A DNA stretch of 64,000 nt, taken from assembly GCF_019397265.1 (NCBI RefSeq), contig NZ_CP068985.1, positions 7,931,001 to 7,995,000 on the forward strand. The letters run 5' to 3'. Source of the stretch: Nonomuraea coxensis DSM 45129. GTDB taxonomy: Bacteria; Actinomycetota; Actinomycetes; Streptosporangiales; Streptosporangiaceae. Under the pieces are notes generated by a model that ran no database searches, was not told the DNA's origin, and saw nothing but the letters and a program-made list of their open reading frames with translations. This document shows positions 6,537-62,256 of this stretch, piece by piece (the first letter of the stretch is position 1; each line of letters starts with the position of its first letter). Both the position numbers and the translations under genes were made by a program.

Positions 6537-8404
6537 TGTCCCGCCGTTATCTGGAGCTGCTGGCGCGTGAGGCGTCGGCGGTGGAGTTCGAGGGGCCGAT
6601 CGTCGAGGCGCGGGCCCGGGGGGCCGACGCGGCCGAGATCGAGGAGCTGGAGCAGGCCAAGATCGAGGCGCTGAGGGTGCGCGCGCTGCTCAGGCGGCGG
6701 GCCCGGCGCGAGGCCGAGCTGTCCGCTCTCTACGACACCGCCGGCGACCTCGCCGCCCTGCGCGACCTGGACGCCGTCCTGGAGGCGATCGTGCACCGGG
6801 CGAGGCAGCTCCTCGCGACGGACATCGCGTACATGACGCTGCACGACCCCGAGCGGGGCGACACGTACATGCGGGTCACCGACGGGTCGATCTCGGCCAA
6901 GTTCCGGGCGCTGCGCCTGGCGATGGGGGCGGGCCTCGGCGGGCTGGTGGCGCAGACGGCGACGCCGTACGCGACCGCCGACTACTTCGCCGACCCGCGC
7001 TTCCGCCACGAGGGCCACATCGACGAGGCCGTCGAGGAGGAGGGCCTGGTCGCGATCCTCGGCGTGCCGCTGCGGCTGGGGCAGCGGGTGATCGGCGTGC
7101 TGATGGCGGCCAACCGCAGCGCGCGGCCGTTCCAGCAGGAGGAGGTGGCGCTGCTGGCGAGCCTCGCGGCGCACGCGGCGGTGGCGATCGACAACGCGCG
7201 GCTGCTCCAGGAGACCAGGAACGCGCTGGAGGAGCTGTCGCGGGCCCACCGCACATCGCGGGCGCGCGGCGAGGCGGTGGAGCGGGCGGCGCTGGCGCAC
7301 GACCGGATGACCTCGCTGGTGCTGCGCGGCGGCGGCATCGAGGACGTGGCGGCCGTGGTGACGGACGTACTGGGCGGCGCCCTCGCGGTCCTGGACGACC
7401 TGGGGCGCCCGCTCACGGGCGACGTGGGCGAGCTGGACGCGGGGGTGTTCGAGGCCGCGCAGGCGTCGCGGGCGCTCGGCCGGACGGTGCGGCGCGGTGA
7501 GCTGCTGGTGGCGTCCGTGGACGTCGGCGGCGAGCCGCTGTGCACGCTGGTGCTGCGCAGCGACGACGCCGACGAGCGCATCCTGGAGCGGGCGGCGCTG
7601 GTGTGCGCGCTGCTGCTGCTGTTCAGGCGGAGCGTGGCCGAGGCGGAGGGCCGGGTGCGCGGCGAGCTGCTCGACGACCTGATCGCCCGGCCGGACTCCC
7701 CCGGCCTCGCCGACCGGGCCAGGCGGCTCGGGGTGGATCTGGGGGCGCCGCACGTCGTCGTGGTGGTCAAGCACGGCGGGCAGCGGGAGCGGGCGGCGTT
7801 CTGGGCGTCCTCGCAGGCGGCGATCCGGCACGGGCTCGCGGCGGGGCGGGGCGACGAGGTGGTGCTGCTGCTGCCGGGCGAGCGTCCCGGCGCGCTCGCC
7901 GCGCGGGCGGCCGCCGAGCTGAGCGCGTCCCTGGGCCGGCAGGCCACGGCCGGCGCGGCCCTCGCGGCCGCGGAGGGCGTCGTCCCCTACGCCTACCAGG
8001 AGGCGCGGCGGTGCGCCGAGGCGCTGATCGCGCTGGGCCGGGCCGGGGAGGGCGCGAGCGCGGCCGAGCTGGGCTTCGTCGGGCTGCTCGTCGGCGACGG
8101 CCGCGACGTGCGCGGCTTCGTGGACCGGGTGCTGGGCGCGGTGATCGGCTACGACGCCCGGCGCGGCACCGCGCTGACCGACACCCTCGCGGCCTACTTC
8201 GGCACGGGCGGCTCGCCGTCGCGTACGGCCGAGGCCCTGCACATCCACGTCAACACGGTGACGCAGCGGCTGGACCGGGTCGGCCGGCTGCTCGGCGACG
8301 GCTGGCAGGAGCCGGAGCGGGCACTGGAGCTCCAGCTCGCCCTCCGGCTGCACCGCCTCGGCCACACATCCACCCGGCAGAGTGTGGGCCCCGACTCCAT
8401 ATGA
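6536..8404 (+). CDS. GAF and PucR-type helix-turn-helix transcriptional regulator
   Basis: A 622-residue cytosolic regulator. The N-terminus is coiled and Arg/Glu-rich (residues 20-65), followed by a GAF domain (about 75-220) that could bind the inducer. A middle domain follows, then the C-terminal PucR HTH (about 550-605) with TLAAYFGTGGSPSRTAEALHIH and an adjacent recognition helix. PucR proteins usually activate adjacent catabolic genes in response to a metabolite. ATG 6536 overlaps the dehydrogenase stop by one base (TGATG), indicating translational coupling. A 7-bp inverted repeat begins on its stop codon, and a 9-bp one precedes the transporter, both possible binding sites. Confidence 0.88.
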   Translation: MSRRYLELLAREASAVEFEGPIVEARARGADAAEIEELEQAKIEALRVRALLRRRARREAELSALYDTAGDLAALRDLDAVLEAIVHRARQLLATDIAYMTLHDPERGDTYMRVTDGSISAKFRALRLAMGAGLGGLVAQTATPYATADYFADPRFRHEGHIDEAVEEEGLVAILGVPLRLGQRVIGVLMAANRSARPFQQEEVALLASLAAHAAVAIDNARLLQETRNALEELSRAHRTSRARGEAVERAALAHDRMTSLVLRGGGIEDVAAVVTDVLGGALAVLDDLGRPLTGDVGELDAGVFEAAQASRALGRTVRRGELLVASVDVGGEPLCTLVLRSDDADERILERAALVCALLLLFRRSVAEAEGRVRGELLDDLIARPDSPGLADRARRLGVDLGAPHVVVVVKHGGQRERAAFWASSQAAIRHGLAAGRGDEVVLLLPGERPGALAARAAAELSASLGRQATAGAALAAAEGVVPYAYQEARRCAEALIALGRAGEGASAAELGFVGLLVGDGRDVRGFVDRVLGAVIGYDARRGTALTDTLAAYFGTGGSPSRTAEALHIHVNTVTQRLDRVGRLLGDGWQEPERALELQLALRLHRLGHTSTRQSVGPDSI

Positions 8405-47927: not shown

Positions 47928-47943
47928 GGGAGAGTCTGAAGGC

Positions 47944-49098
47944 ATGAACGATGCGATTCTCCCGTTCCGGGTCGACATTCCGCAGGCCGAGCTCGACGAC
48001 CTCGCCGCCCGCCTGGCGAGCACCCGGTGGCCCGGCGAGCTGCCCGGCGTCGGCTGGTCGTACGGCGTGGCCCAGGGCCACCTCGAAGAGCTGGTGCGCT
48101 ACTGGCGCACCGGGTACGACTGGCGCCGCCACGAGGCCCGGCTCAACTCCTTCCCCCAGTTCACGACCACGATCGACGGCCAGAACGTCCACTTCCTGCA
48201 CGTCCGCTCCCCCGAGCCGGACGCGATCCCGCTGATCATCACGCACGGCTGGCCCAGCACCGTGTACGAGTTCCTCGACCTCATCGGCCCGCTCACCGAC
48301 CCGCGCGGGCACGGCGCGGACGGCGCGCCCGCCTTCCACGTCGTCATCCCATCGGTGCCCGGGTTCGCGTTCTCCGGCCCGACCGGGGAGACCGGCTGGG
48401 GCGTGAACCGGGTCGCGCGGGCGTGGGCGGAGCTGATGCGCCGCCTCGGCTACGAGCGCTACGGGGCGCAGGGCGGCGACTTCGGCAGCATGGTCTCGCC
48501 CGAGCTCGGCCGCGTCGCCCCGGACAAGGTCATCGGCGCGCACGTGAACGCGCTGGCCAACGCCTCGACGCCGACCGACCCCGACGACCTGGACCGGCTG
48601 TCGGGGGGCGAGCGGGAGCTCGCTCGCGAGCAGGAGGCGTGGTGGTACAAGCACTCCGGCTACGCCACCCAGATGTCGACCCGGCCGCAGACGCTGGCGT
48701 ACGCGCTCAACGACTCCCCCGCCGGGCAGCTCGCCTGGAACCTGGAGTGGTACGTGGACTGGGACCCGGCGAACACGGTGCAGACCCCGGTGGACCGCGA
48801 CGTCCTCCTCACGGACGTGACGATCTTCTGGCTGACCCGGACGACGGGCTCGGCGGCCCGCCTCTACTACGAGGGCGGCGACGAGGGGTGGGGCAAGCGC
48901 CCGGCCCCGTCAGGGGTGCCGACGGGAGTGGCCAACTTCCCCGGCGACAAGGCGCTGCGGGGTCTGGCCGAGCTGTCGCACGCGATCGTGCACTGGTCCA
49001 CGCCGCCGCGCGGCGGCCACTTCGCCTCGGTGCAGGCCCCCGACCTGCTGGTCGAGGACATCCGTACGTTCTTCGCGAAGACGAACAGCCGGCGATAG
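47944..49098 (+). CDS. Epoxide hydrolase family protein
   Basis: 384 residues. An N-terminal EHN domain ([23 protein letters not shown]) is followed by an alpha/beta-hydrolase core. HGWPST is the oxyanion motif, QGGDFGS carries the nucleophilic Asp, and RGGHFAS supplies the catalytic His; two lid tyrosines are probable in the RLYYEGG region. It opens epoxides to diols in the cytosol; the physiological substrate is unknown. It stands alone, convergent with a DUF6292-like gene, two bases beyond its stop. Confidence 0.92.
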
Positions 49099-49800: not shown

Positions 49801-50232
49801 ATGTCCACCCTGCTTCTCTGGCTCCACGTCGGGTTCGCGATCTTCACCATCGGCCCGGTGACCGCCGCGACGATGGCCGCGCCCCGCCTCATCCGCACCA
49901 AGAACGTGCCCGCGCTGCAGAACATCGCGCGCCTGACGCGGATCTACAGCATCGGCTCACTCGGAGTGTTCGTGTTCGGGCTGGTGCTCGGCATCGTGAT
50001 GGGCGGAGGTGTGCTCGGCAAGTGGTACATGACGGCCTCGATGACGCTGTTCATCGTGGCGGCGGCGCTGCTGGTGCTGATCGACCGTGACCTCCGCGCC
50101 GCCGTGCACGCCCTTTCGAGCGAGGACCCCGTCGACGACGCGAAGGTGCAGAACGGACGGATCGCCGCCATCAGCGGAGTGGTGTCCGTGATCTGGCTGG
50201 TGATCCTCTTCCTGATGATCGTCCCCACCTGA
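49801..50232 (+). CDS. DUF2269-like integral membrane protein
   Basis: 143 residues with four hydrophobic helices and LHVGFAIFTIGPVTAA at the start, characteristic of DUF2269. No active-site residues are recognisable. ATG 49801 follows a 42-residue membrane protein gene. It converges on metB with 25 bases between stops. Confidence 0.82.
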   Translation: MSTLLLWLHVGFAIFTIGPVTAATMAAPRLIRTKNVPALQNIARLTRIYSIGSLGVFVFGLVLGIVMGGGVLGKWYMTASMTLFIVAAALLVLIDRDLRAAVHALSSEDPVDDAKVQNGRIAAISGVVSVIWLVILFLMIVPT

Positions 50233-50257
50233 CGGGCCTGACGGGGACGCGCGCCGC

Positions 50258-51400
50258 TCAGCCGGCGAGCGCCCGCGTGAGGTCGGCGAGCAGGTCGTCG
50301 ATCGTCTCGATGCCGACCGACAGCCTCACCAGGTCGGCGGGCACCTCCAGCGGCGAGCCCGCCGCCGACGCGTGCGTCATCCGCCCCGGGTGCTCGATCA
50401 GCGACTCGACGCCGCCGAGCGACTCCCCCAGCGTGAACAGCTTGGCCCGGTCGCACACCGCCACGGCCTCGGCCTCGCCCCCGGCGACGCGGAACGACAC
50501 CATGCCGCCGAAGCGCCGCATCTGCTTGGCCGCGACCTCGTGCCCGGGGTGCTCGGGCAGCCCCGGGTAGAGCACCTCGGTCACGCGCGGGTGCGCGAGC
50601 AGCAGGTCGACCACGCGCTCGGCGTTGTCGCAGTGGCGGTCCATGCGGACCCCGAGGGTCTTGAGCCCGCGGAGCGTCAGCCAGGCGTCGAACGGCCCGG
50701 CCACCCCGCCGATGGCGTTCTGGTGGTAGGCGAGCTCCTCGCCGAGCCCGGCGTCGGCCGCGATCAGCGCGCCGCCGACCACGTCGGAGTGGCCGCCGAC
50801 GTATTTGGTCGTGGAGTGCACGACGACGTCGGCGCCGAGGGCGAGCGGCTGCTGCAGGTAGGGCGAGGCGAAGGTGTTGTCCACCACCAGCAGCGCCCCG
50901 TTGTCGTGGGCGAGCTGCGCGAGCGCCGCGATGTCGGCGACGCCGAGCAGCGGGTTGGTCGGCGTCTCGACCCAGACGACCCGCGTCTTCTGCGTCATGG
51001 CGGCGGCCACCGCGTCGAGGTCGTGCAGCGGGACCGGGTCGTAGTGGAGGTCCCAGCGCTGGTGGACCTTCGCGAAGAGCCGGTAGGTGCCGCCGTAGGC
51101 GTCGTTGGGGATGACCACGTGGTCCTGCGGCTTGCAGACCGTACGCAGGAAGGTGTCCTCCGCGGCCAGCCCCGACGCGAACGCCAGCCCGCGAGCCCCG
51201 CCCTCCACGGCCGCCAGCGCCTCCTCCAGCGCGGTGCGGGTGGGGTTGGCCGAGCGGCTGTACTCGTATCCGGAACGCAGGCCGCCCACGCCGTCCTGCT
51301 TGTAGGTGGACGTGGCATATATCGGCGGCACGACCGCGCCGGTCAGCGGGTCGGGCTCCTGACCTGCGTGGATGGCCAGAGTTTCAAAACCGTTGCTCAT
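50258..51400 (-). CDS. metB: Cystathionine gamma-synthase
   Basis: PLP enzyme of the Cys/Met metabolism family, 380 residues, making cystathionine from an activated homoserine ester and cysteine. The PLP Lys is in HSTTKYVGGHSDVVGG; SGYEYSRSANPTR, FASGLAAE and DNTFASPYLQ are the other family motifs, and the terminal SLGGVESLIEHP is typical of gamma-synthases/lyases. In M. tuberculosis metB (Rv1079) lies near cbs (Rv1077); here a histidine kinase and a lasso-peptide cluster separate them. Distinguishing synthase from gamma-lyase needs experiment. Confidence 0.92.
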   Translation of the reverse strand: MSNGFETLAIHAGQEPDPLTGAVVPPIYATSTYKQDGVGGLRSGYEYSRSANPTRTALEEALAAVEGGARGLAFASGLAAEDTFLRTVCKPQDHVVIPNDAYGGTYRLFAKVHQRWDLHYDPVPLHDLDAVAAAMTQKTRVVWVETPTNPLLGVADIAALAQLAHDNGALLVVDNTFASPYLQQPLALGADVVVHSTTKYVGGHSDVVGGALIAADAGLGEELAYHQNAIGGVAGPFDAWLTLRGLKTLGVRMDRHCDNAERVVDLLLAHPRVTEVLYPGLPEHPGHEVAAKQMRRFGGMVSFRVAGGEAEAVAVCDRAKLFTLGESLGGVESLIEHPGRMTHASAAGSPLEVPADLVRLSVGIETIDDLLADLTRALAG

Positions 51401-51425
51401 ACGCCAACGGTAACGGACTCCGGGG

Positions 51426-51542
51426 TCAGGCTGCCTCGTCCGGTTCCCCCTCGAACCGGGAGATCAGCACGGGGTCCGCCAGCGCCAGCAGCAGCGCGAC
51501 GACCAGCCCGGCCCCCAGCAACGCGAATCCGATGACGGCCAT
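51426..51542 (-). CDS. Small membrane protein near metB
   Basis: 38 residues from ATG 51542, with AGGGGA six bases upstream. One membrane helix (VIGFALLGAGLVVALLLAL) and an acidic tail ending EGEPDEAA. It lies 25 bases upstream of metB, so they may share a transcript. Too short for most gene finders; function unknown. Confidence 0.6.
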   Translation of the reverse strand: MAVIGFALLGAGLVVALLLALADPVLISRFEGEPDEAA

Positions 51543-51677
51543 GTCCGTCCCCTTTCGACCTCTCCAGCATCGGCTCCGCCCCCGGACGGCCGCCTCCGCT
51601 GAAGGGCTGGTCCGCCCCTGCCGCGCTCGGCCGAACGGTTGATACGGAATGTCCGACTTGAGACCTAGGCTCTGAGC

Positions 51678-52820
51678 GTGGGTGAGACGAAACGCCTCCT
51701 GTACTGGGTGCGGCGGCTGAGCGAGTTCGCGATGCTCGGCTGGCTCGGCCTGATGCTCATGCTCGACCTGGTGATCGCCGCCTCCACCGGGGGCCTGCAG
51801 TGGCTGGTGCCGGTGTGCGGCGTGGTGGGCATCGCGGCGGTGGCGCTGCGGCGCGGGCACCGGCCCGACGGCTTCGCCGTCATGCTGGCCGTGTCCTTCT
51901 GCACGTCCGTGGCCATCGGGAGCGTGGATCTCGCCGGCGTGCCCGGCATGGCGGAGACCGGGTCGCTGCTCATCCTCGTCATCGGCGTGCTGCGGCACGT
52001 CCAGCCGGTACGCCGGGCGGCCGCCCTGGCCTGCGCCGGGCTCATCGTGCTCATGGCCGAGGCCCTGGGCCGCGACTACCACGGGGCGGGGCTCGCGTTC
52101 TCGTTCCTGCTGTTCGCCGGCTGGTCGATGGCCGCGGGGGTGGGCGGCTACCTGCGTTTCCAGCAGGAGCGGCGGACGGAGGCCGTCCACTCGGTACGCA
52201 GGGCCGAACGCCTGGAGCTGGCCAGGGAGCTCCACGACCTGGTCGCCCACCACGTCACCGGGATCGTGGTCCAGGCGCAGGCCGCCCGTACGGTGGCCGA
52301 GGCCAGCCCGGAGGCGGTGCTGCCCGCGCTGGACGCGATCGCCGAGGCCGGGACGGAGGCGCTGACCTCGATGCGGCGCATGGTGACCGTGCTGCGCGCC
52401 GAGGAGGAGGCGGGCCGGCGGCCCGGCACGACCCTGGCCGACCTGCGGATGCTGACCGACCGCTTCTCGGCCGACGGGCCGAAGGTCGCCTTCGAGATCG
52501 GCCCCGGCCTGGACGACCGCACGCTGCAGCCCGAGGTCATGACGACCCTGCACCGGGTGCTCCAGGAGGCGCTGACCAACGTGCGCAAGCACGCCACGCG
52601 GACCTCCTGGGTGGAGGCGGACCTGCGCCGCCACGAAAGGTCGGCGGTGCTGCGGGTGCGCAACTTCGGCTCGGCCCCGGACCCGCGGGTGTCCCGCCTG
52701 GGCGGCGGCTTCGGCCTGGTCGGGATGGCCGAACGGGTGGAGGCCCTCGGCGGCAGGCTCCACGCGGGCCCCTCCAGGGAGGGCGCCTGGGAGGTCGTCG
52801 CCGAGTTCCCCCTGGCATGA
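51678..52820 (+). CDS. Orphan NarL-type sensor histidine kinase
   Basis: 380 residues. Four to five membrane helices in the first 160 residues are followed by HisKA_3 with phospho-acceptor LARELHDLVAHHVTG and a HATPase domain with a degenerate N box (LQEALTNVRKHA) and GGGFGLVGMAERVEALGG. Such kinases normally pair with a LuxR-type response regulator encoded next to them. None is present here; a convergent regulator gene (TPR-XRE) starts nine bases after its stop. The partner may lie elsewhere, or may have been lost on insertion of the lasso cluster. Confidence 0.85.
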   Translation: MGETKRLLYWVRRLSEFAMLGWLGLMLMLDLVIAASTGGLQWLVPVCGVVGIAAVALRRGHRPDGFAVMLAVSFCTSVAIGSVDLAGVPGMAETGSLLILVIGVLRHVQPVRRAAALACAGLIVLMAEALGRDYHGAGLAFSFLLFAGWSMAAGVGGYLRFQQERRTEAVHSVRRAERLELARELHDLVAHHVTGIVVQAQAARTVAEASPEAVLPALDAIAEAGTEALTSMRRMVTVLRAEEEAGRRPGTTLADLRMLTDRFSADGPKVAFEIGPGLDDRTLQPEVMTTLHRVLQEALTNVRKHATRTSWVEADLRRHERSAVLRVRNFGSAPDPRVSRLGGGFGLVGMAERVEALGGRLHAGPSREGAWEVVAEFPLA

Positions 52821-52829
52821 CCCGACGCG

Positions 52830-54212
52830 CTAGACGGCCCGCGTACGCGCCGCCAGCTCATGCAGCAGGGGCGGGACACGTCCGGGCTGGTGCCGCATGG
52901 CCGAGATGAGCGCGATGACCGATGGCCGGCGCACCTCCTCCGGACCGGCGCGTTCGGCCGCGAGCAGCGCGTGAACAGCGCGGCCACGATCACCGAAGGC
53001 ATGCCAGGCGCGGGCGGTGTCGATGCAGTAGCGCGCGTACCGTTCGGACGACGGCAGCCGCCGAGGGTCCACCTTCTGCGCCACCGTCAGGGACATGGCC
53101 GGGTCGCCCAAGGCGTTGTGGATGCTTATCCGGTAGGCCGCTACCGTGGCCGGCATAGAGGCTCCGGGCATCGCAGGCGTCACGACGAGCCGCCGGGCCG
53201 CGAGTTCGGCCTCACCGATGAAGTCCTCGGCGTCGTGCTGTTCACCGCCCTGGGCGCTGGCGTAAGCGGCGGTGCACAACAGGTCGATGTAGCGGGCGAG
53301 CACGGTCGGGTTCGTCCGGTCTGTGCCGGCACCCAGGCGGGCTGCGGTGTCGGCCAGCAGGGAAGTGGCGCTGGCGTGGCGGCCCTGCCGTCGCATCGCG
53401 ATAGCCACCTGACGCGCTGCCCCCGCTACGGCGGACAGGTTTCCTGAGGCACGGGCGGCCCGCAGGGCGCGGTCGGCGGCGACACACGCCACGGCGTCGG
53501 TGTGGACCTTGGTGGCGAGCATGGCCGTCAGGACGTAGGCGTCGGCGAGCAGCACGTGAGCCTGATCCCGCATAAGGCCGCCGACTTCGGCGACGGTGGT
53601 CTCGGCGGCTTGGACGAGGGGCGGCAACGTGATCGACAGTGCGCCGTAGCTGGTGGCGGCGAACGCCTCGCGGGCTTTTCCGAGCTCGGCGGTTAGAGCG
53701 GCCAGGCTGGCCGGCGCGGCCGTACCGGCATCGGTCAAAAGACGTTCCAGGCGGTCGGAGATGGTGTCGCTGACCGTGTTGGAGGCAGTGGCACTCAACA
53801 GCGCGGGTCCGGCCACGCCGAGGAAGTGGCGGCGCTTCACGTTTCGTTCCTCCCCTGCCGCTGAAGGCACCACCCTAAGCTCTGGTCCTACGACAGCGCT
53901 CGTGAACGCGCGGACGGTGCGTCCCTGCAGCGGGTGACCGGAGAGTTGTTCCTCGGCCAGACCCAGCCACCGGCAGGGGATGTCCAGGGACTGAGCCAGG
54001 CGGCGCAACGTGGCGATGTCGTTCAAAGGCTGCCGTCCGGTCTCCAGGCGAGAGATGGTCGCGGCCGAGTAGCCGGTCGCGGACCCGAGCTGCTCCTGCG
54101 TGAGGCCCGCCTGCCGGCGGGCCAGTCGGACGACGAGGGGATAATCCGCGGCCCTCACCGCGGCGAGCAGCGCGGCGGGGATACGGGCGGGGCTGTGCGG
54201 CGTGTCCAGCAT
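52830..54212 (-). CDS. XRE-type regulator with TPR-like domain
   Basis: 460 residues from ATG 54212. The N-terminal HTH (RRQAGLTQEQLGSATGYSAATISRLETG, about residues 31-58) is followed by about 330 residues of helical repeats of TPR type, resembling SARP/Rap-like or phosphatase-regulated regulators of actinomycetes. It is divergent from the lasso precursor, and two TTGCGAGGT repeats lie between, so it is the likely cluster regulator. A small-molecule or peptide ligand is inferred from the TPR fold. No membrane segments. Confidence 0.8.
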   Translation of the reverse strand: MLDTPHSPARIPAALLAAVRAADYPLVVRLARRQAGLTQEQLGSATGYSAATISRLETGRQPLNDIATLRRLAQSLDIPCRWLGLAEEQLSGHPLQGRTVRAFTSAVVGPELRVVPSAAGEERNVKRRHFLGVAGPALLSATASNTVSDTISDRLERLLTDAGTAAPASLAALTAELGKAREAFAATSYGALSITLPPLVQAAETTVAEVGGLMRDQAHVLLADAYVLTAMLATKVHTDAVACVAADRALRAARASGNLSAVAGAARQVAIAMRRQGRHASATSLLADTAARLGAGTDRTNPTVLARYIDLLCTAAYASAQGGEQHDAEDFIGEAELAARRLVVTPAMPGASMPATVAAYRISIHNALGDPAMSLTVAQKVDPRRLPSSERYARYCIDTARAWHAFGDRGRAVHALLAAERAGPEEVRRPSVIALISAMRHQPGRVPPLLHELAARTRAV

Positions 54213-54300
54213 CGAGGTCACCGGCCCTGAACTGAGGACCCTCAGCGTAGCCCAGAGACACCTGGCCGCCCTAGGTGATCGCGATATGACGATGCGTAAC

Positions 54301-54330
54301 TTGCGAGGTATGCAAACGATCTTGCGAGGT
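54301..54330 (+). promoter_or_regulatory. Paired TTGCGAGGT repeats upstream of the lasso precursor
   Basis: TTGCGAGGT occurs at 54301-54309 and 54322-54330, period 21, two helical turns, on the same face. TTGC and GCAA (54301-54304, 54312-54315) also form a small dyad. They lie 84-113 bases before the precursor start, between it and the divergent regulator gene. They are likely binding sites for that regulator; the -10 is not clear. Confidence 0.6.
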
Positions 54331-54413
54331 GCGCGCACATCCTCGCCGCACTCCCGGGAATCGGCTGTCGTAGCAGGTGACGGGCCGCACCGGTCCGGCC
54401 GAAAGGAGATCCC

Positions 54414-54554
54414 ATGTACGACGAGACCACCTCCCACCCCGACCACGCTCAGCCCTACGCCACGCCCACCCTGGTCGACCTCGGCAGCGTCCGCGCCATC
54501 ACCCTGGGCAGCGCCCGCCACGACACCGCCGACAAGAAGAAGTACTACAACTGA
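54414..54554 (+). CDS. Lasso peptide precursor (A)
   Basis: 46 residues (ATG 54414 to TGA 54552-54554) with AAAGGAG upstream. The leader has Y15-x2-P18-x-L20-x3-G24-x5-T30, the recognition motif of actinobacterial lasso precursors, with Thr at the penultimate leader position. Cleavage after L31 gives the core GSARHDTADKKKYYN: Gly1 at the N-terminus, an Asp at position 9 suited to a nine-residue macrolactam ring, loop KKK, and bulky YYN as plug and tail. D6-T7 lies inside the ring, next to a PIMT-type methyltransferase gene in the cluster. Missed by ordinary ORF calling because of its size. Confidence 0.88.
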   Translation: MYDETTSHPDHAQPYATPTLVDLGSVRAITLGSARHDTADKKKYYN

Positions 54555-54561
54555 CCGCCTT

Positions 54562-54600
54562 GGCCTGCTGCCGGCCGCACTGTGCAGCCAGTAGCAGGCC
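54562..54600 (+). terminator. Hairpin between lasso precursor and cyclase genes
   Basis: GGCCTGCT (54562-54569) and AGCAGGCC (54593-54600) form an 8-bp stem with a 23-base loop just after the precursor stop. RiPP clusters often have a partial terminator here, so precursor mRNA exceeds enzyme mRNA. The next ribosome site (GAGGAGG) follows. Confidence 0.6.
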
Positions 54601-54621
54601 GGGTTTGAGGAGGAACAGATC

Positions 54622-56504
54622 ATGCGCTGGTACGCCGGATGGTTCTCTCATTCACACGCCGGTCAGGACGCCGCTGCACCATCTCGCCCACGTGGAAGCC
54701 GCGTCTTGTCAAACCGGCCACCGTTGTGGGCAACAGGAGAATGGGGCCGGGAGCTACGCACCCTGACCATGGAGCACTGGCAGATCGCAGTTTTCGGCGC
54801 CTGCCTGGCCGACGACGCCGAACTCACCGGCACGCTGAGGCGCGCGGCGCGCACCGGCGACTGGGCTCAGTTGGCCGCCCTGCCCGGCAGCTTCGTGACC
54901 GTACGGACCGGCGCCGACGGCGTCCTGGTCGTCCCGGACCTCGCCGGAGCATGGCCACTGTTCTTCACTCCCTGGGCGGGCGGCATCGCCTACTGCTCCT
55001 CGCCGCTGCCACTGGGCGACCTCATCGGAGCCGACCCCGACCCGCGCTGGCTGGCAGCACGCCTGATAGGCGCCGACCTCACGCACGCCACCGGCGACCG
55101 GTCGCCGTTCGCCACGATCAACCGGTCACGGCCCGGCCACATGGTGCTGCTCAGGGGCCAGAAACCGTGCCACCGACCTCTGGACGTGCGCCTTGGCGGA
55201 CTGCCCTTCGCCGAAGGCGCCGAACAACTCCGGCACGCGCTGCTGACCGCGGTCAGCAGGCGCGCGCACCAGGCCGAGCGCCTGTCCAGCGACCTGTCAG
55301 GAGGGCTCGACTCTTCCAGCCTCGCTCTGCTGGCCGCGCGCTACCGGACCTCGCCTCTGCCCGCAATCACCTACGTGGACCCCGTCGGTGGCGGCGAGGA
55401 CGACTTGACCCATGCCCTGCTGTGCGTGCGGGCGGAACCCGCCTTGAAGCACATCGTCATCAGACCCGGTCCGGACGCGCTCCCGCTCACCGCACTGGAC
55501 CGGGCGCCGCTCCTGGACGAGCCCGCCCAGGACGTACTGCTGTGGGCCCGCGATGAGGCCGTGCTCGCACCCGCGGCCGGTGGGCTGCACATGACCGGCG
55601 ACGGCGGCGACTGCGTTCTTGCCGGTTCCCTTGCCTACCTGGCCGACCTGGCCCGGCCGCCGACCGCGGGGCGCTTCCTGACAGAAGCGGCGGCATGGGC
55701 GCGGCTGCGTCACCGCCCCGCCTACGCCGTCATCAGGGCCGCGCTGCGTATGGCCCGCACCAGCTACCCTCAGGCGCTGGCCGGCGTCGCCGAGCAACTG
55801 CGCGGCGGAGACCTGCCGACACGGCGAGGCGTGGAGGACACGCTGCGCTGGTGCGGTCTCAGCCCCGCTGCAGCCTGGGCGACCCGGGAGGCCCGCGTGG
55901 ATCTCGCCGCCGGCATCGAGTCGCTGATCGCCGACGGTCTTGGCCATCAGCCTGAGCATCTGTTCCCTGAGGCCGGAGCCGATGCCGAAGCACTCCGGCT
56001 GGTGCGCGCGGCAGGCGCGGACTCCAGGCCGTACAAGCAGGTTGGCGAGGTTTCGGGGTGGACGTACACACTCCGTACCTCGACAACCAGGTCATCGCCG
56101 CCTGCTCCGCCGTTTCCGTCACCGAACGGACCACCGCCCAGACCCCTAAACCACTGCTGAGGGCCGCGCTGGCGGGGCTGGTGCCGGCACAACTGTTGTC
56201 CCGCCGGACCAAGGCGTCCTTCACCGCCTGCCTGTATTCCGGTCTTCGCCATGCCGCGCCGGACGTGCGTGACCTGCTGGAGGAACCCCGGTTAGCCGCG
56301 CTCGGCCTGATCGAAGCCGCGCCCGCCCGCCATGCGGTCGGCCGTCTGCTGGACGGCGCCGACGGCCCGATGGCCGCGGTGTGCGACGTGCTCGCCGCGG
56401 AGCTCTGGCTACGCCAGCTCGCCCAGCCGCGCCCCCGCCTGTGGGGCCCCGCCTCCTCGCTCGAACGTCAGGAGCCTGAACATGCCCGTCCTGCACGCCC
56501 GTGA
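54622..56504 (+). CDS. Lasso cyclase (C), with a -1 frame break
   Basis: Asparagine-synthetase-like enzyme that adenylates the ring Asp and closes the lactam. Start ATG 54622 (GAGGAGG eight bases upstream). N-terminal glutaminase-like part to about 190, then the PP-loop SGGLDSS at 226-232. The frame reads on to 56160, but coding homology leaves it at 56058: in frame 1, codon GGG 56056-56058 is followed by noise, whereas re-reading G56058 gives GTG-GAC-GTA, VDVHTPYLDN, the conserved helix of the family, open to 56504. The joined product is about 627 residues, the normal size. GCGAGG precedes the GTG at 56058, so split translation is also conceivable. Overlaps the B1 gene by 23 bases. Confidence 0.82.
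56055..56061 (+). other. Frame-break site in the lasso cyclase
   Basis: The stretch C-GGGG-TGG (G at 56055-56058) is where the cyclase reading frame must shift by -1 to join residues ...GEVSG to VDVHTPYLDN. A one-base deletion in the G-run, a sequencing error, or programmed -1 slippage would each explain it. No classical slippery heptamer or strong downstream stem is apparent. Confidence 0.75.
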
Positions 56505-56763
56505 AGGCATCCGCCGCACCCCCGCCGACGATCAGGGAGCGGTCCTGATGGACGCCCATCGGGACCGCTTCTACGGTCTCAATCCCGCCGCCGCCGTAAT
56601 CTGGCATGCCGTGGCCGACGGCACCGAGGTCACCGCAGCCGCGGCCATCGCGGCCAGGGCCCTGCTCGCGGCCTTCTCCATCGACCCTGCCACCGCCCAG
56701 CGAGACGCCGAATCCCACCTCGCCGTGCTCACCGGGCACGGGCTGCTGCAGGAGCGGCCATGA
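56482..56763 (+). CDS. Lasso RRE protein (B1, PqqD-like)
   Basis: 93 residues from ATG 56482. The PqqD-like fold is visible in AREGIRRTPADDQGAVLMDAHRDRFYGLNPAAAVIWHAV, shown in pieces, followed by a helical C-terminus. It binds the leader of the precursor and hands it to the B2 protease and cyclase. It overlaps the cyclase 3' end by 23 bases and the B2 gene by four (ATGA). Confidence 0.88.
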   Translation: MPVLHAREGIRRTPADDQGAVLMDAHRDRFYGLNPAAAVIWHAVADGTEVTAAAAIAARALLAAFSIDPATAQRDAESHLAVLTGHGLLQERP

Positions 56764-57176
56764 CCAGCCATATGGCCCTTCCCCCGCTTGAGCATCGGCT
56801 CACTCTCGCCCACCGGCTCTCGGCGGTGATCGCGCACCTGCTCGCCGCCGCCCTGATCCGGCTCCCGTTCCGTCTCCTGTCCCGGGTGCTCGGCATGGTC
56901 GGCCGGTGGTGCCGGCACGCCGCCACTCCGACACAAGCACGGATCGCCGCCGAGGCGGCCCGCTGGGCAGGACACTGGATGCCAGGGCGGGCCGCCTGCC
57001 TGGAGAACGCCGTGGCCGCCATGCTGACCGCGGCGGTCCGGGGCCGGCGCGTGCACGTGTGCATCGGGGCGCGCACGCAGCCCTACGCCGCGCACGCCTG
57101 GATCGAGACCACCTCCGGAGCCTCAGGCGAGCCGTACCACCCCGACCGGCCCTATCACCTGTTGCTCCGCATATGA
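56760..57176 (+). CDS. Lasso leader peptidase (B2)
   Basis: 138 residues of transglutaminase-like fold. The catalytic Cys is C80 in GRAACLENAVA and the His is H112 in YAAHAWIE; the third member is probably the Asp of HPDRPYH, but not certain. It removes the leader after the penultimate Thr, releasing Gly1. ATG 56760 overlaps the B1 stop (ATGA). N-terminal hydrophobic helices may help membrane association. Confidence 0.87.
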   Translation: MTSHMALPPLEHRLTLAHRLSAVIAHLLAAALIRLPFRLLSRVLGMVGRWCRHAATPTQARIAAEAARWAGHWMPGRAACLENAVAAMLTAAVRGRRVHVCIGARTQPYAAHAWIETTSGASGEPYHPDRPYHLLLRI

Positions 57177-57199
57177 CTTGCCAACGAGGGGGAACCGCC

Positions 57200-58255
57200 G
57201 TGGCCACCGCGACGACCATCAGCCCAGCCGTCCAGAACGCGCTCGACCAGATCTCCGAAACCCACTACACGATGGAGGACGACGGCTCCCTGCTGCCGCA
57301 GACCTCCGACCGCGGCATCATCGCCACCATGCTGGACCTGCTCCAGGTGGAGCCCGGCCAGCGCGTCCTGGAGATCGGCACGGGGTCCGGCTACTCCACC
57401 GCGCTGCTGTCCCGCCTGGTCGGCGAGACCGGCAGCGTCATCTCCGTCGACATCGACCCGGCCCTCACCGGCCGCGCCGGGCGTCGGCTGCGCGCTGACG
57501 GCCGCACCAACGTCACCCTGCACGCCACCGACGGCACGACCACCGGCGGCGGGCAGGTCGACCGCGTCATCGCCTGGACCAGCCCGGAACGCATCCCCGG
57601 AGCGTGGACGCGCCACGCTGCGCCCGGGGCGATCGTGGTCACGCCGGTCCAGGTGACGGACCTGGCCAAGACTGTCCTCGTGGTACGGTGCCGCCGCGGC
57701 GCGCAGGACCCAACGCTCACCACCGACCGGCTGCTGCGGGCCGGGTTCGTCGAGGCCACCCCGTACGTCCTGGACCAGTGGCTCGTGCCGCCCCGCGACG
57801 TCGACGCCCTGGTCCACGACGAAGACGGACGGCCGCGGTGGCTGTCGGCGACCTGGCTGCGCAACGGGGGCGGCGACACCGGGCGGCGGCTGCTCCGGCA
57901 GCTCCGGACAGACGGCCGCCAGGCCGGCGGCCCACTGGACAGGGGGGAGGACCCGGCCGGCTTCTACGCCTTCCTGTTGGCCACCAGGCCCGACGCCCTG
58001 ACCACGGCCGCGCTCGGCGACCCGCTGTGGCGCATCGGCGCCTCCACCCCCACCGGGATCGCTCTCATCACGCCCTCCGACGCCGAACGGCAGACCGCCG
58101 CCGGAGACGACAGCGCCATCGACCTCCTCGCCGCCTGGGCCGCCCAGTGGCGGACCCAGGGCAGCCCAGGTCTCGACCGGCTGTCCGCCGTGCTGCACCA
58201 TGTCGGCGACGGCTGGACGGTCCGTCTCACGCCGGCCACCGGCGCGCACGCCTAG
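57200..58255 (+). CDS. Lasso-associated PIMT-family O-methyltransferase
   Basis: 351 residues. SAM motif I VLEIGTGSGYSTALL at about 56-70 and the N-terminal SPAVQNALDQISETHY match protein L-isoaspartyl methyltransferases; a C-terminal domain of about 130 residues is extra. In characterised lasso clusters (cellulonodin-2, lihuanodin), such enzymes methylate an Asp in the ring of the threaded peptide, which then closes to an aspartimide. The core here has an in-ring Asp6-Thr7. GTG 57200 has AGGGGGA seven bases upstream; ATG 57173 would overlap the B2 stop. It converges on cbs. Confidence 0.85.
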   Translation: MATATTISPAVQNALDQISETHYTMEDDGSLLPQTSDRGIIATMLDLLQVEPGQRVLEIGTGSGYSTALLSRLVGETGSVISVDIDPALTGRAGRRLRADGRTNVTLHATDGTTTGGGQVDRVIAWTSPERIPGAWTRHAAPGAIVVTPVQVTDLAKTVLVVRCRRGAQDPTLTTDRLLRAGFVEATPYVLDQWLVPPRDVDALVHDEDGRPRWLSATWLRNGGGDTGRRLLRQLRTDGRQAGGPLDRGEDPAGFYAFLLATRPDALTTAALGDPLWRIGASTPTGIALITPSDAERQTAAGDDSAIDLLAAWAAQWRTQGSPGLDRLSAVLHHVGDGWTVRLTPATGAHA

Positions 58256-58282
58256 CCGGCGCCGGGCCGTCAGGGAGCGGGA

Positions 58283-59653
58283 TCAGTGGTTGGCCAGGAA
58301 GGCGAGCAGGTCCTGCCGGGTGATCAGCCCGGACGGCTTGCCGTCCTCCAGCACGACCGCCGCGTCCGCCTTCTCCAGCGCTTCCACCGCACGCGCCACA
58401 GGTTCACCACTGCCGATCGTGGGTAGCGGCGCGGACATGTGGTCGGCGATCGGGTCGTCGGAGGAGAGCCTGCCGTGGTAGAGGGCTTCGAGGAGGTCGC
58501 GCTCGACGATGGAGCCGACGACCTCGGCCGCCATGACCGGCGGCTCCTCCTTCATGACCGGGAGCTGGGACACGCTGTACTCGCGCATGATCGAGATGGC
58601 CGTGCCGACCGTCTCGTGCGGGTGGGCGTGCACGAACTCCGGCAGGCCCGGCCCCTTGCGCGCCAGCACGTCGCCGACCAGGCCCTCGTCGGAGCTGGTC
58701 GTGAGGAAGCCGTAGTCGGCCATCCAGTCGTCGTTGAAGATCTTCGACAGGTAGCCGCGGCCGCCGTCGGGCAGCAGCACGACGACCGTGTCGCCCTCCT
58801 TGGCCCGCGCCGCCACCTGGAGCGCCGCGACGACGGCCATGCCGCACGACCCGCCGACCAGCAGCCCTTCCTCCCGGGCGAGGCGGCGGGTCATGGTGAA
58901 GGAGTCCTTGTCGGAGACCGCGATGATCTCGTCGCAGATCGTGGTGTCGTACGTGGCCGGCCAGATGTCCTCGCCGACGCCCTCCACGAGGTAGGGGCGC
59001 CCGCTGCCGCCGGAGTAGACCGAGCCCTCGGGGTCGGCCCCGACGACGCGCACCCGGCCGCCGGATATCTCCTTGAGGTAGCGGCCCGTGCCGCTGATCG
59101 TGCCGCCGGTGCCGATGCCGGCGACGAAGTGGGTGATGCCGCCCTCGGTGTCGGCCCAGATCTCGGGGCCCGTGGAGTGGAAGTGGGACTCCCGGTTCTC
59201 GGGGTTGGAGTACTGGTCGGGCTTCCAGGCGTTGGGCACCTCGCGGGCCAGCCGGTCGGAGACCGAGTAGTAGGAGTCGGGGTGGTCGGGCGGGACGGCG
59301 GTCGGGCAGACCACGACCTCGGCCCCGTACGCCCGCAGCACCGCGATCTTGTCCTGGGCGACCTTGTCCGGCACCACGAACAGGCACCGGTAACCCCTCT
59401 GCTGGGCCACGATGGCGAGCCCCACCCCGGTGTTGCCGGAGGTCGGCTCGACGATGACCCCGCCGGGGCGCAGGGCGCCCGACTTCTCGGCGGCCTCGAT
59501 CATGCGGACCGCGATGCGGTCCTTCACGGATCCGCCCGGGTTGAAGTACTCGACTTTGGCGAGCACCTGGGCCGGCAGGCCCGCGCTCACCTTGTGCAGG
59601 CGGACGAGCGGGGTGTTCCCTATGAGGTCGACCAGGGAATCGTAAACGCGCAC
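58283..59653 (-). CDS. cbs: Cystathionine beta-synthase
   Basis: PLP enzyme joining homocysteine and serine to cystathionine in reverse transsulphuration. 456 residues: catalytic domain with PLP Lys in NPGGSVKDR, the SGNTG substrate loop and GTGGTISG phosphate loop, then two C-terminal CBS domains (from about 330) that bind adenosine ligands. GTG 59653 gives the conserved start MRVYDSLVDLIGNTPL. It faces metB across the lasso cluster; in other actinobacteria the two lie close together. An SGNH hydrolase gene is divergent. Confidence 0.95.
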   Translation of the reverse strand: MRVYDSLVDLIGNTPLVRLHKVSAGLPAQVLAKVEYFNPGGSVKDRIAVRMIEAAEKSGALRPGGVIVEPTSGNTGVGLAIVAQQRGYRCLFVVPDKVAQDKIAVLRAYGAEVVVCPTAVPPDHPDSYYSVSDRLAREVPNAWKPDQYSNPENRESHFHSTGPEIWADTEGGITHFVAGIGTGGTISGTGRYLKEISGGRVRVVGADPEGSVYSGGSGRPYLVEGVGEDIWPATYDTTICDEIIAVSDKDSFTMTRRLAREEGLLVGGSCGMAVVAALQVAARAKEGDTVVVLLPDGGRGYLSKIFNDDWMADYGFLTTSSDEGLVGDVLARKGPGLPEFVHAHPHETVGTAISIMREYSVSQLPVMKEEPPVMAAEVVGSIVERDLLEALYHGRLSSDDPIADHMSAPLPTIGSGEPVARAVEALEKADAAVVLEDGKPSGLITRQDLLAFLANH

Positions 59654-59780
59654 CGAGGTGTTCACCTTCTTTGCCAAAGCTTGATCAGCTATCGAAAGGC
59701 CGAGATCCGGTCGGGATGGCAGGCCCTCGGCTAGTTTCCTAGCAAACGCTACCGCCGAGTTCGACCAGGGAGGGACGTAC

Positions 59781-60764
59781 GTGGTCTGGGCAGCTGGGAT
59801 GGCGCGCGCCGCACGTAGGATCGCCACCGCGGCGGCGCTCGGAGGGGGCGGGCTGACGGCCTTGGGTGCGACGGCGTACGGGCTGCTGGTCGCCGAGGGA
59901 CTGCTGGCGCGCAAGGCCATCGGCCGCCCGCACGGCATGGACGGGCCCCCTTCCGACGGCACGTACGGCATGTTCCCCGGCGAGGCGATCAAGCTGGCGA
60001 TGCTGGGCGACTCCACGTCGGTGGGCCTCGGCATGACGGATCCGGCCCAGACGCCCGGCGTGCTGCTCGCCAACGGCCTGGCCGCGGTGTCCGAGCGCCC
60101 GGTGCGGCTGCTCGTGGCGGGCCGCTCGGGCGCGTCGTCGGCGGAGCTGGGCGAGCAGGTGGACCGGGCGCTCGCCATGGAGCCGCACCTGGCGGTGATC
60201 TTCGTGGGGGCCAACGACATCATCACCCAGACGCCTCCGGCGGTCGCCGTGCGCCACCTGACCAAGTCGGTGCGCCGGCTGCGCGAGGCGGGCGTCGAGG
60301 TGATCGTGGGCACCTGCCCCGACCTGGGCACGGTACGGCCCATCGCGCAGCCGCTGCGCTGGGTGACCCGGCGGTGGAGCCGGCAGCTCGCGGCGGCCCA
60401 GACGGTGGCGGTGGTGGACGCGGGCGGCCGTACGGTGGCCTTCGCCGACACGCTCGGCCCCGAGTTCGCTACAAATCCGACAGAGATGTTCGGACCGGAT
60501 CGTTTCCATCCATCTGCCCGAGGTTACGCGCAGGCCGCTTACGTGGTGCTACCGTCGGTGTGCGCTGCGTTGGGGTTGTGGCCTGAGCCGCGCCCCGCGC
60601 GCCGCGAAGAACTGCAACCGATCTACCTCGCGGCGGCCACGGCCGCGGAGGAGCCCGGCACCGAGGTCACCGCGACCCGGGTCGACGGGCGGGCGACGGG
60701 GCTGCACGGCAAGTGGGCCGCGTTGTTCCGCCGGAGGCTCGGCGAGCAGCTCAACGACGCCTGA
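59781..60764 (+). CDS. SGNH/GDSL hydrolase
   Basis: 327 residues. A membrane helix near the N-terminus (AALGGGGLTALGATAYGLLVAEGLL) may anchor it. Block I MLGDSTSVG carries the catalytic Ser, GANDIITQ is block III, and DRFHPSARGY is block V with Asp-His. Such enzymes are extracytoplasmic esterases, often on lipids or polysaccharides. GTG 59781 has AGGGAGGG upstream. It corresponds in order to Rv1075c near cbs (from memory). Confidence 0.88.
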   Translation: MVWAAGMARAARRIATAAALGGGGLTALGATAYGLLVAEGLLARKAIGRPHGMDGPPSDGTYGMFPGEAIKLAMLGDSTSVGLGMTDPAQTPGVLLANGLAAVSERPVRLLVAGRSGASSAELGEQVDRALAMEPHLAVIFVGANDIITQTPPAVAVRHLTKSVRRLREAGVEVIVGTCPDLGTVRPIAQPLRWVTRRWSRQLAAAQTVAVVDAGGRTVAFADTLGPEFATNPTEMFGPDRFHPSARGYAQAAYVVLPSVCAALGLWPEPRPARREELQPIYLAAATAAEEPGTEVTATRVDGRATGLHGKWAALFRRRLGEQLNDA

Positions 60765-60906
60765 CCCCCCGGTTCAGGCCCGTCGAGCGGCTCGGCCCGC
60801 GGCCGGTCCGCCCCCGTTCCGGCGTGGCGTGTCCTCGACCGCGCCCCGCACCGGTGACCTTCCGCGCCCGAGCCGTCACTCCTCGTCCCCTTGGAGGGTA
60901 TCGCCC

Positions 60907-62256
60907 GTGCTCCGGCCCCTCTGGAAGCCGTCCGTCGCCCTGTTGGCAGGAACTTTCGCCGTCGCCGGGTGCGCCGGCAGCGACGCGGCCACCACCCCCG
61001 CCTTCCCCACCTGGCACAACACGCAGGTCAACGTCGTCAGCCGGCTGGCCGAGGCGGCCGGGGTGGTGACCACGACCTCGATGAAGCCCGACGGCTCCCT
61101 GGAGACGGTGGCCGTCCGGCTGCGCGACGGCCGGCGGCTGTGGGGCTATCCGGCCACGATGGCCGGCCGCCTGCCCGGCATGGGCGTCTCGGCTCCCGCG
61201 ATCGTCGAGACCGGCGGCGGCGAGGGCGTGGTGGTGGCGCTCGACCCGGCGCGCAAGGGCCGGTGGAACGCCACTCTGGTGGCCCGCGACGCGCACTCCG
61301 GCGTGCAGAAGTGGACCCGGCCGGTGCACTCCTCGTTCGGGCCGCAGCGCTGCGGGCCCTACGTCTGCCTGTCGGAGCACACCGCGCTGGCCACGGCCCG
61401 CACGGTGGTGCTCGACCCGGCCAGCGGCAAGCCACTGTGGAAGCTGCCGGGCATCTCGGAGGTCGAGTGGTCCGACCGGACGCGGGTGCTGCTGCTGCGG
61501 CTGTCGGACGACCCGATGGTGGAGTCGTACGAGCTCAAGACCGGCAAGCTGCAGTGGCAGCAGCCGATCGAGCAGGCGCTCGGGCCGGGCGTCGACCTGT
61601 CGGGCGGCTGGGCGTTCGGCGCGGCGGGCGACGACCTGGTCGGCTACGTCGCCCCCTACACCGACCCAGAGACCAGGCGGCTGTCCACGTTCGGCCTGTT
61701 CTCGCTGCGGAGGGCCGACGGCACGATCAACTGGATCCGCCCGTCGGTCGTGCGCGTCTACCCGAGCGGCAACCCCGGCTACGCCCCCGTCGTGCGGCCG
61801 GTGGACCGCCAGGGCGCCTACGGCGGCTTCGCCCGGCTCGACCCGACGTCGGGGCGGGTGATGGGGCAGGTCGGCGCCGCCGACGTGCCCGGCTCCGGCT
61901 GGTGGCTGGCCTTCCCCGACCGCATGGACAAACTGGGCTTCCTCACCCACGGCGCCAAGGGCTCGGTCTATGACCTGGCCTCGGGCCGGTCGGCTCCGGT
62001 GGAGGAGGAGCGGAGCTGGTCCTTCTGCGTCACCGACCCCAAGCCGCTGCCGTTGAAGGGCCAGCCGCCCGGCTTCTACGCGACGGCGGCCGTCTGCGAG
62101 TACGACCTCGCCACCGGCAGGCGGGTCACCCCGGCGGGCCCGCCCCCGGCGTGGTTCACCGGCAGCATGGCGGGCTGGCGGCTGTGGCGCGACGAGAAGG
62201 GGGCCCTGCACGCGGTGAACGACAACACCGAGAGCGCGCCGGGCATGTACGGGTAA
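60907..62256 (+). CDS. Secreted beta-propeller lipoprotein
   Basis: 449 residues from GTG 60907 (GGAGGG eight bases upstream). Signal peptide with lipobox FAVAGC, then blade-like repeats with WxY/WxL and GxxV patterns, resembling PQQ-type or quinoprotein-like seven-bladed propellers without metal-binding residues visible. The Cys-rich spots (RCGPYVC, FCVTD, VCEYD) may form disulphides. Function unknown; a surface scaffold or sensor is plausible. Confidence 0.75.
   Translation: MLRPLWKPSVALLAGTFAVAGCAGSDAATTPAFPTWHNTQVNVVSRLAEAAGVVTTTSMKPDGSLETVAVRLRDGRRLWGYPATMAGRLPGMGVSAPAIVETGGGEGVVVALDPARKGRWNATLVARDAHSGVQKWTRPVHSSFGPQRCGPYVCLSEHTALATARTVVLDPASGKPLWKLPGISEVEWSDRTRVLLLRLSDDPMVESYELKTGKLQWQQPIEQALGPGVDLSGGWAFGAAGDDLVGYVAPYTDPETRRLSTFGLFSLRRADGTINWIRPSVVRVYPSGNPGYAPVVRPVDRQGAYGGFARLDPTSGRVMGQVGAADVPGSGWWLAFPDRMDKLGFLTHGAKGSVYDLASGRSAPVEEERSWSFCVTDPKPLPLKGQPPGFYATAAVCEYDLATGRRVTPAGPPPAWFTGSMAGWRLWRDEKGALHAVNDNTESAPGMYG

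Follow-up and report, generated by a model that had tools for sequence, protein, structure and literature searches.

The window, a stretch of 64,000 nucleotides from Nonomuraea coxensis DSM 45129 (contig NZ_CP068985.1, positions 7,931,001 to 7,995,000), probably holds a group-1 lassimiditide cluster on an inserted block of DNA, in which the cyclase frame is broken, decay is at an early stage and little or no product is made. A decaying lassimiditide island is the likeliest reading of the locus, and an error of assembly at the lesion is its main rival. The genes for a lasso precursor, a cyclase, an RRE, a B2 protein and a PIMT-type methyltransferase are consecutive, in the order A-C-B1-B2-M. 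The features are as follows, with positions counted from the first letter of the window.

52825–58260, no strand given: whole block of 5.4 kb, between a sensor-kinase gene (ends at 52820) and a cystathionine-beta-synthase (CBS)-like gene (from 58283)
52830–54212, minus strand: divergent helix-turn-helix regulator, 460 aa
54402–54409, plus strand: AAAGGAGA, ribosome-binding-like, 5′ of the precursor, read from the sequence
54414–54554, plus strand: precursor A, 46 aa, made up of a leader of 31 aa, which has the YATPTLVDLG motif with Thr at −2, and a core of 15 aa
54507–54551, plus strand: core GSARHDTADKKKYYN, with the Asp6 codon at 54522–54524 and the Asp9 codon at 54531–54533
54622–56160, plus strand: first open reading frame of cyclase C, 512 aa, with SGGLDSS and GDGGD
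56047–56057, plus strand: approximate site at which the cyclase frame shifts by one net base, placed by frame and homologue comparison
56058–56504, plus strand: second open reading frame of cyclase C, 148 aa, with a possible GTG start
56482–56763, plus strand: B1, RRE/PqqD-like leader-binding protein (PF05402, E 7.5e-11)
56760–57176, plus strand: B2, leader peptidase, lasso_biosyn_B2 (NF033537, E 2e-21, 76.7 bits, cut-off 33)
57200–58255, plus strand: M, PIMT-type methyltransferase with a C-terminal domain (PF01135, E 9.3e-25)

The earlier note had placed a lasso leader and core at 54414, and the open reading frame there bears this out, its leader matching the NCBIfam model lasso_leader_L3 (NF033521) with an E value of 3e-6 and 26.9 bits, above the cut-off of 19. 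The core, GSARHDTADKKKYYN, has Gly1, Asp6, Thr7 and Asp9, and DTAD occupies positions 6–9. Gly1 with D(T/S)AD at these positions marks group 1, and DTAD at 6–9 is the published signature of that group of lassimiditides, to which cellulonodin-2 and lihuanodin belong (PMC13001092). The motif supports Gly1 and Asp9 as the predicted partners of a 9-residue ring, as had been proposed. Asp6-Thr7, described in the same proposal as the only other in-ring Asp, is indeed present; that description understates the case, as Asp6-Thr7-Ala8-Asp9 is the published motif itself. Group 2, where the modified Asp belongs to the loop, is recognized by conservation of an Asp beyond the ring, and KKKYYN has no Asp past Asp9. 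The precursor also falls short of the albusnodin type, scoring 22.3 bits against the NF033525 cut-off of 30.

The PIMT-like enzyme that had been noticed at 57200, after the RRE, B2 and cyclase genes, was confirmed by the match to PF01135 and by the family motif WXXXGXP, present as WRTQGSP at residues 317–323; all 40 of the aligned sequences have W317 and P323. The PCMT match stops at residue 159 of 351, and beyond it lies the C-terminal extension that, with WXXXGXP, marks the PIMT homologue of group-1 clusters. The fold aligns with the two-domain PIMT of Thermotoga maritima (PDB 1DL5) across model residues 4–348, at 20% identity, with a domain orientation that differs as judged by rmsd. Pairwise dN/dS values for M (Nei-Gojobori) were 0.47 between the window and locus L020 and 0.57 between the window and locus L051, compared with 0.25 and 0.37 for complete-cluster pairs and 0.37–0.41 for orphan pairs; these few pairs suggest visible constraint, less of it in the pairs that include the window. 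A scan of genome contigs with M found two loci, one of which, L007, was left out as a remote methyltransferase, and a class-wide search gave matches in 5 of 394 genomes, including one from another family (locus L101).

B1 and B2 are of the lasso type that group-1 clusters contain, as seen from PF05402 and NF033537, with B1 scoring 46.6 bits against NF033530, under its cut-off of 70. The order A-C-B1-B2-M together with DTAD recurs in 12 of the 31 relatives' loci read. Loci L052 and L064 reach contig edges and were left unclassed, and two M sites of the family, G160 and a second copy in G149 (34% identity), were left out of the set. The predicted class, a PIMT-associated lasso peptide with Asp6 as the aspartimide site and Asp9 as the acceptor, is supported by DTAD, the leader, the gene order and WXXXGXP, in agreement with the earlier note, and it fits every feature that could be tested at the level of sequence. 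In the proposed pathway, given that every gene works, B1 would hold the leader and B2 would cut after Leu31. The cyclase would link Gly1 with the Asp9 side chain round the threaded tail to give a 9-residue ring. M would then methylate Asp6 of the threaded peptide, and the amide of Thr7 would expel methanol to form the aspartimide. The monoisotopic masses calculated for these species are 1752.854 (linear core), 1734.844 (lasso), 1748.859 (lasso methyl ester) and 1716.833 (lasso with aspartimide), with predicted 2+ ions at 877.434, 868.429, 875.437 and 859.424.

The characterized lassimiditides cellulonodin-2, from Thermobifida cellulosilytica, and lihuanodin, from Lihuaxuella thermophila, have the lasso leader, 9-residue ring and Asp9 acceptor predicted here, and DTAD at 6–9 with Asp6 modified by a PIMT homologue bearing WXXXGXP, sequence features that are matched in the window (PMC13001092). 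The comparison, made by published features rather than core letters, sets apart the loop and tail KKKYYN and the broken cyclase frame of N. coxensis. The cores of all twelve DTAD precursors read in relatives (9 distinct ones) have 16 residues and fit the pattern DTADxNxx(R/K/H)Y(N/Y/W). The core in the window is an outlier, a 15-mer that lacks Asn11 and Arg14 and has KKK after the ring. The earlier note had called for a precursor search and had thought the peptide an undescribed member. The protein search returned the precursor itself as sole match, with no identical core, a search of solved structures with the precursor found none, and the core letters are absent from the literature searched, which did not extend to supplementary lists of mined precursors. 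The kind of peptide, in contrast, is already published: group-1 D(T/S)AD clusters or peptides mined in actinobacteria number 48, 58 or 67 by report, the last two figures coming from two mining studies. By its sequence, the core is an addition to the group-1 lassimiditides already described, not a new type.

The cyclase, treated as whole in the earlier note, proved to be split by a frame change. Its two open frames overlap and match positions 9–417 and 440–559 of NF033561, the model of albusnodin/ikarugamycin-family macrolactam cyclases, which is the best model for both; since the pieces align with separate stretches of a single family model, the gene as sequenced has a broken frame. Each piece alone is under the 300-bit cut-off. 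The nearest homologue, P0123, is an intact cyclase of 627 aa from Nonomuraea sp. NPDC049646 that bears the albusnodin/ikarugamycin-family name, although the precursor in the window is under the albusnodin cut-off. Residues 1–479 of the first frame are 78% identical to residues 1–477 of P0123, and residues 1–148 of the second are 81% identical to its residues 478–627, with no extra stop. The pieces are thus collinear with P0123, and as two collinear NF033561-type pieces they place a lasso cyclase gene of the family at the locus, in line with a group-1 cluster; the single unbroken frame expected of a functional producer is absent as sequenced. Because the frame is broken, production of the lasso peptide by the strain is probably slight or absent, and the cluster appears to be in early decay. 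The intact second frame implies that the lesion is either very recent or an error.

The idea that a different cyclase could stand in from elsewhere in the genome is unsupported. NF033561, the sole cyclase model used, finds no second lasso cyclase in the genome; its other matches are two partial ones (E 1e-18 and 6e-18), at the level of asparagine-synthase-like proteins, and there is only one B2 protein. TKASF in the second frame, where Nocardiopsis-type clusters have TKGDY, was considered as a sign of decay and rejected, because the genus' other lasso cyclases (TKAAF and TKGEF) and intact P0123 (TKGAF) vary there too.

If the frame change were an error of sequencing or assembly, the cluster would be whole, and its product would be a cationic lasso peptide that has a new core and contains an aspartimide. 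This is somewhat unlikely. The lesion amounts to one net base in a short TTT/GGGG homopolymer context, where indel errors are common, both sides of it are about equally conserved relative to P0123, and A, B1, B2 and M are all open. Nonomuraea sp. NPDC049646 (P0003, P0123) probably has closely related clusters that are intact. However, comparison with N. wenchangensis over 24.8 kb of gene cores found no real frame error or non-triplet indel in any of 24 genes, so that the assembly does not look poor overall, and inspection by eye showed no split gene in the window other than the cyclase. The cyclase representative in the protein collection is a short form of 463 aa with two members on two contigs, a weak point on the same side. 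Cyclase frames are broken likewise in the relatives' loci L056 and L062, which could reflect recurrent decay or recurrent draft errors.

It is improbable that the break is tolerated, with the second frame translated from GTG 56058 or by ribosomal slippage so that the pieces form a working split cyclase. The GTG has a Shine-Dalgarno-like GAGG (56047–56050) at the proper distance, and the ATP-binding SGGLDSS and the C-terminal TK motif lie in different pieces, but intact P0123, P0124 and P0125 each carry both parts in one chain, the first frame closes with about 33 off-frame residues, and no canonical slippery heptamer was seen. That M is a housekeeping or repurposed PIMT lying beside the lasso genes by chance and not acting on Asp6 is very improbable: M-type genes without lasso genes do persist in several Nonomuraea loci, but this one stands in the published lassimiditide order beside a DTAD precursor, carries the motif of the family and clusters with the M proteins of NPDC049646 and NPDC052265 (support 99/96).

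The neighborhood bears on the preferred reading, a decaying island. In N. wenchangensis the flanks of the block are 92% and 96% identical, and the same locus holds only a fragment of M (a 229-bp match); the regulator lies inside the block missing there, and no relative of it was found beside the other loci. Of 10 other Nonomuraea loci, 3 have the kinase and CBS-like genes side by side, and the block would be an insertion between two otherwise neighboring genes. An apparent precursor remnant 5′ of the B2 stub in L051 (...RIDAPGGYYGN*), which looked worn by eye, was rejected because aligning it locally, as DNA, to the precursor of the window gave a score of 13, which 273 of 500 shuffles also reached.

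It is conceivable, though doubtful, that the PIMT outlives the lasso pathway in this lineage: cyclases break, A, C and B1 are lost, and an intact lasso-type PIMT is kept through another substrate. In six Nonomuraea species an orphan PIMT lies directly 3′ of a gene for a conserved protein, some 110 residues long (MA/VENFxELPAPSSVRLIDFEEARVVPG...), that has no Pfam family, and the two are a candidate enzyme/substrate pair. The core of N. coxensis, one residue shorter, with three lysines after the ring and without Asn11 and Arg14, would test the tolerance of the threading enzymes and the PIMT for changes in loop and tail. The frame break in the cyclase and the N. wenchangensis remnant are a warning that, when a cluster is called by its motifs alone, the strain can be credited with a product it does not make.

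Five plus-strand genes stand in series in the single 9.07-Mb contig of the window's genome (G000): a precursor (A), a cyclase (C), an RRE/PqqD-like protein (B1), a leader peptidase (B2) and a PIMT-type methyltransferase (M). NF033561 is the albusnodin/ikarugamycin-family macrolactam cyclase model.

Features of the cluster (window positions)
52830-54212, divergent, upstream of the five genes: helix-turn-helix regulator
54414-54554, +: precursor A, NCBIfam lasso leader model, E 3e-6
from 54622, +: cyclase C, NF033561 matches in two frames
56482-56763, +: B1/RRE
56760-57176, +: B2, lasso_biosyn_B2, E 2e-21
57200-58255, +: M, PIMT-type, PCMT, E 9.3e-25

A genome search returned this one match to B2 only. 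The strongest of the nine PCMT matches in the genome lies elsewhere (G000:C1:8935879-8936238, locus L103).

Two characterised aspartimide lasso peptides have in common DTAD at core positions 6-9, in which Asp6 is the modified residue and Asp9 closes the ring; their PIMTs have in common WXXXGXP within an additional C-terminal domain, and M requires the threaded peptide (PMC13001092). Sixty-seven clusters of this type and an identical DTAD group are given in PMC10787088. The window core, GSARHDTADKKKYYN, has DTAD at positions 6-9. In M, residues 317-323 read WRTQGSP, of which W317 and P323 are unchanged in all 40 sequences aligned. Residues 4-348 of the predicted structure of M (mean pLDDT 92.3) align with the two-domain PIMT of T. 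maritima; among the first rows compared, canonical PIMTs high in the structure-match list end at about residue 199. Every sequence feature tested therefore agrees with the class proposed in the earlier note, and the cluster very probably belongs to it. The genes present, their motifs, the broken frame and the differences between loci are read directly from the DNA; by analogy with published systems, the leader would be bound and cut after Leu31, the Gly1-Asp9 ring would form with threading, and Asp6 would be methylated and then closed to the aspartimide.

The peptide had also been put forward as an undescribed member. Neither the core nor pieces of it were found in the literature searched, a scope that stopped short of published supplementary precursor lists, and a precursor search of 5.8 billion proteins found one candidate, itself; such a search is a weak test when the protein is this short. 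The novelty is confined to the letters of the core: the kind of molecule is already known from the DTAD group, and the core is a new member of it.

The cyclase, which the earlier note had taken as whole, is as sequenced two overlapping frames collinear with one intact chain. The first (54622-56160) matches NF033561 positions 9-417 and residues 1-477 of the intact 627-residue cyclase P0123 of Nonomuraea sp. NPDC049646 (78% identity); the second (56058-56504) matches model positions 440-559 and residues 478-627 (81%). Single chains likewise cover both pieces in P0124 and P0125. The frame change amounts to one net base near 56047-56057. Conservation beyond it is no poorer than before it and no extra stop follows, so the lesion is either recent or an assembly error. 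No other NF033561 cyclase was found in the genome beyond two weak partial matches. Probably, then, the strain as sequenced yields little or no product. An assembly error hiding a working cluster is a less likely reading. The alignment with N. wenchangensis spans 28.7 kb, of which 24.8 kb are gene cores, and takes in most of the length of 24 genes. Its only non-triplet indels are a closely spaced 5+4 pair, which together make nine, and a single base at 47938, six positions ahead of the likely start codon at 47944; this speaks against a generally poor assembly and lowers the odds of error. That the overlapping frames, collinear with a single chain, work as two pieces is very improbable. Broken cyclase frames occur in three of 13 DTAD clusters, the window included; the other two (L056, L062) break at different places and may reflect decay or sequence errors.

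The block 52825-58260 lies between a sensor-kinase gene and a cystathionine-beta-synthase-like (CBS-like) gene. The flanks in N. wenchangensis share 92% (50001-52824) and 96% (58261-62000) identity with those of the window; the sole remnant between them is a 229-bp match to M (87%; L030, about 6560-7200; also L006). Kinase and CBS-like gene adjoin, 6 to 121 bases apart, at three of ten other Nonomuraea loci (L116, L121, L123); at the remaining seven no CBS-like match follows the kinase in the retrieved stretch. No relative of the block's regulator was found at other retrieved loci. We infer that the 5.4-kb block arrived ahead of the split between N. wenchangensis and the window's species, and that the former subsequently lost most of it. 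Short PIMT-like proteins also occur in the protein collection: P0017 and P0030 (named N. wenchangensis) and P0015 (N. cavernae).

Searches with M gave 12 matches at 1e-30 in 54 genomes of the genus, 31 at 1e-40 in 341 of the family and 5 in 394 drawn from the class; 31 stretches from relatives were retrieved and read. Twelve repeat the gene order of the window, with a DTAD precursor first and then C, B1, B2 and M.

Relatives' loci by gene content
DTAD precursor with C, B1, B2 and M: L053-L059, L061-L063, L065, L066
B2 stub adjoining M: L020, L021, L051, L070
M without lasso genes: L022-L027, L067-L069
M itself broken or fragmentary: L029, L030
B1 and B2 without cyclase: L060
Other lasso cluster with distant M: L028
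At contig edges, unclassed: L052, L064

The precursor step demanded D(T/S)AD and a leader-like motif, other precursor types lying outside it. The 12 precursors carry nine distinct cores, all 16-mers with Asn11, Arg/Lys/His14 and Tyr15, whereas the window core is an outlier, a 15-mer with a KKKYYN tail. L060 (3692-6113) holds B1, B2 and two tandem PIMT-like stretches, with no cyclase or DTAD precursor in the 12 kb retrieved. L028 (6104-14000) is a lasso cluster of different type whose cyclase (L071) is above the NF033561 cut-off; its PIMT is distant (36-37% identical), and no DTAD precursor was found at the locus.

PIMT genes also stand apart from the pathway. At L020 (5616-6860) an intact PIMT, 70% identical, adjoins a B2 stub; A, C and B1 are absent from its 13 kb, and in its genome (G042) NF033561 matches nothing better than 1e-17. 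On the tree of M sequences, that of the window groups with NPDC049646 and NPDC052265 (99/96), next with L020 (97/89) and then L051 (100/99), so that M genes whose only lasso companion is a B2 stub fall among cluster M genes. In six Nonomuraea species (L022-L027) a lasso-type PIMT that shares about 45-48% identity with the window M lies in conserved synteny; no lasso genes were found near it, and two of these genomes, G017 and G036, have no NF033561 match better than 1e-16. Directly upstream lies a conserved protein, about 110 residues long and assigned to no Pfam family; the two possibly constitute a new PIMT/substrate pair.
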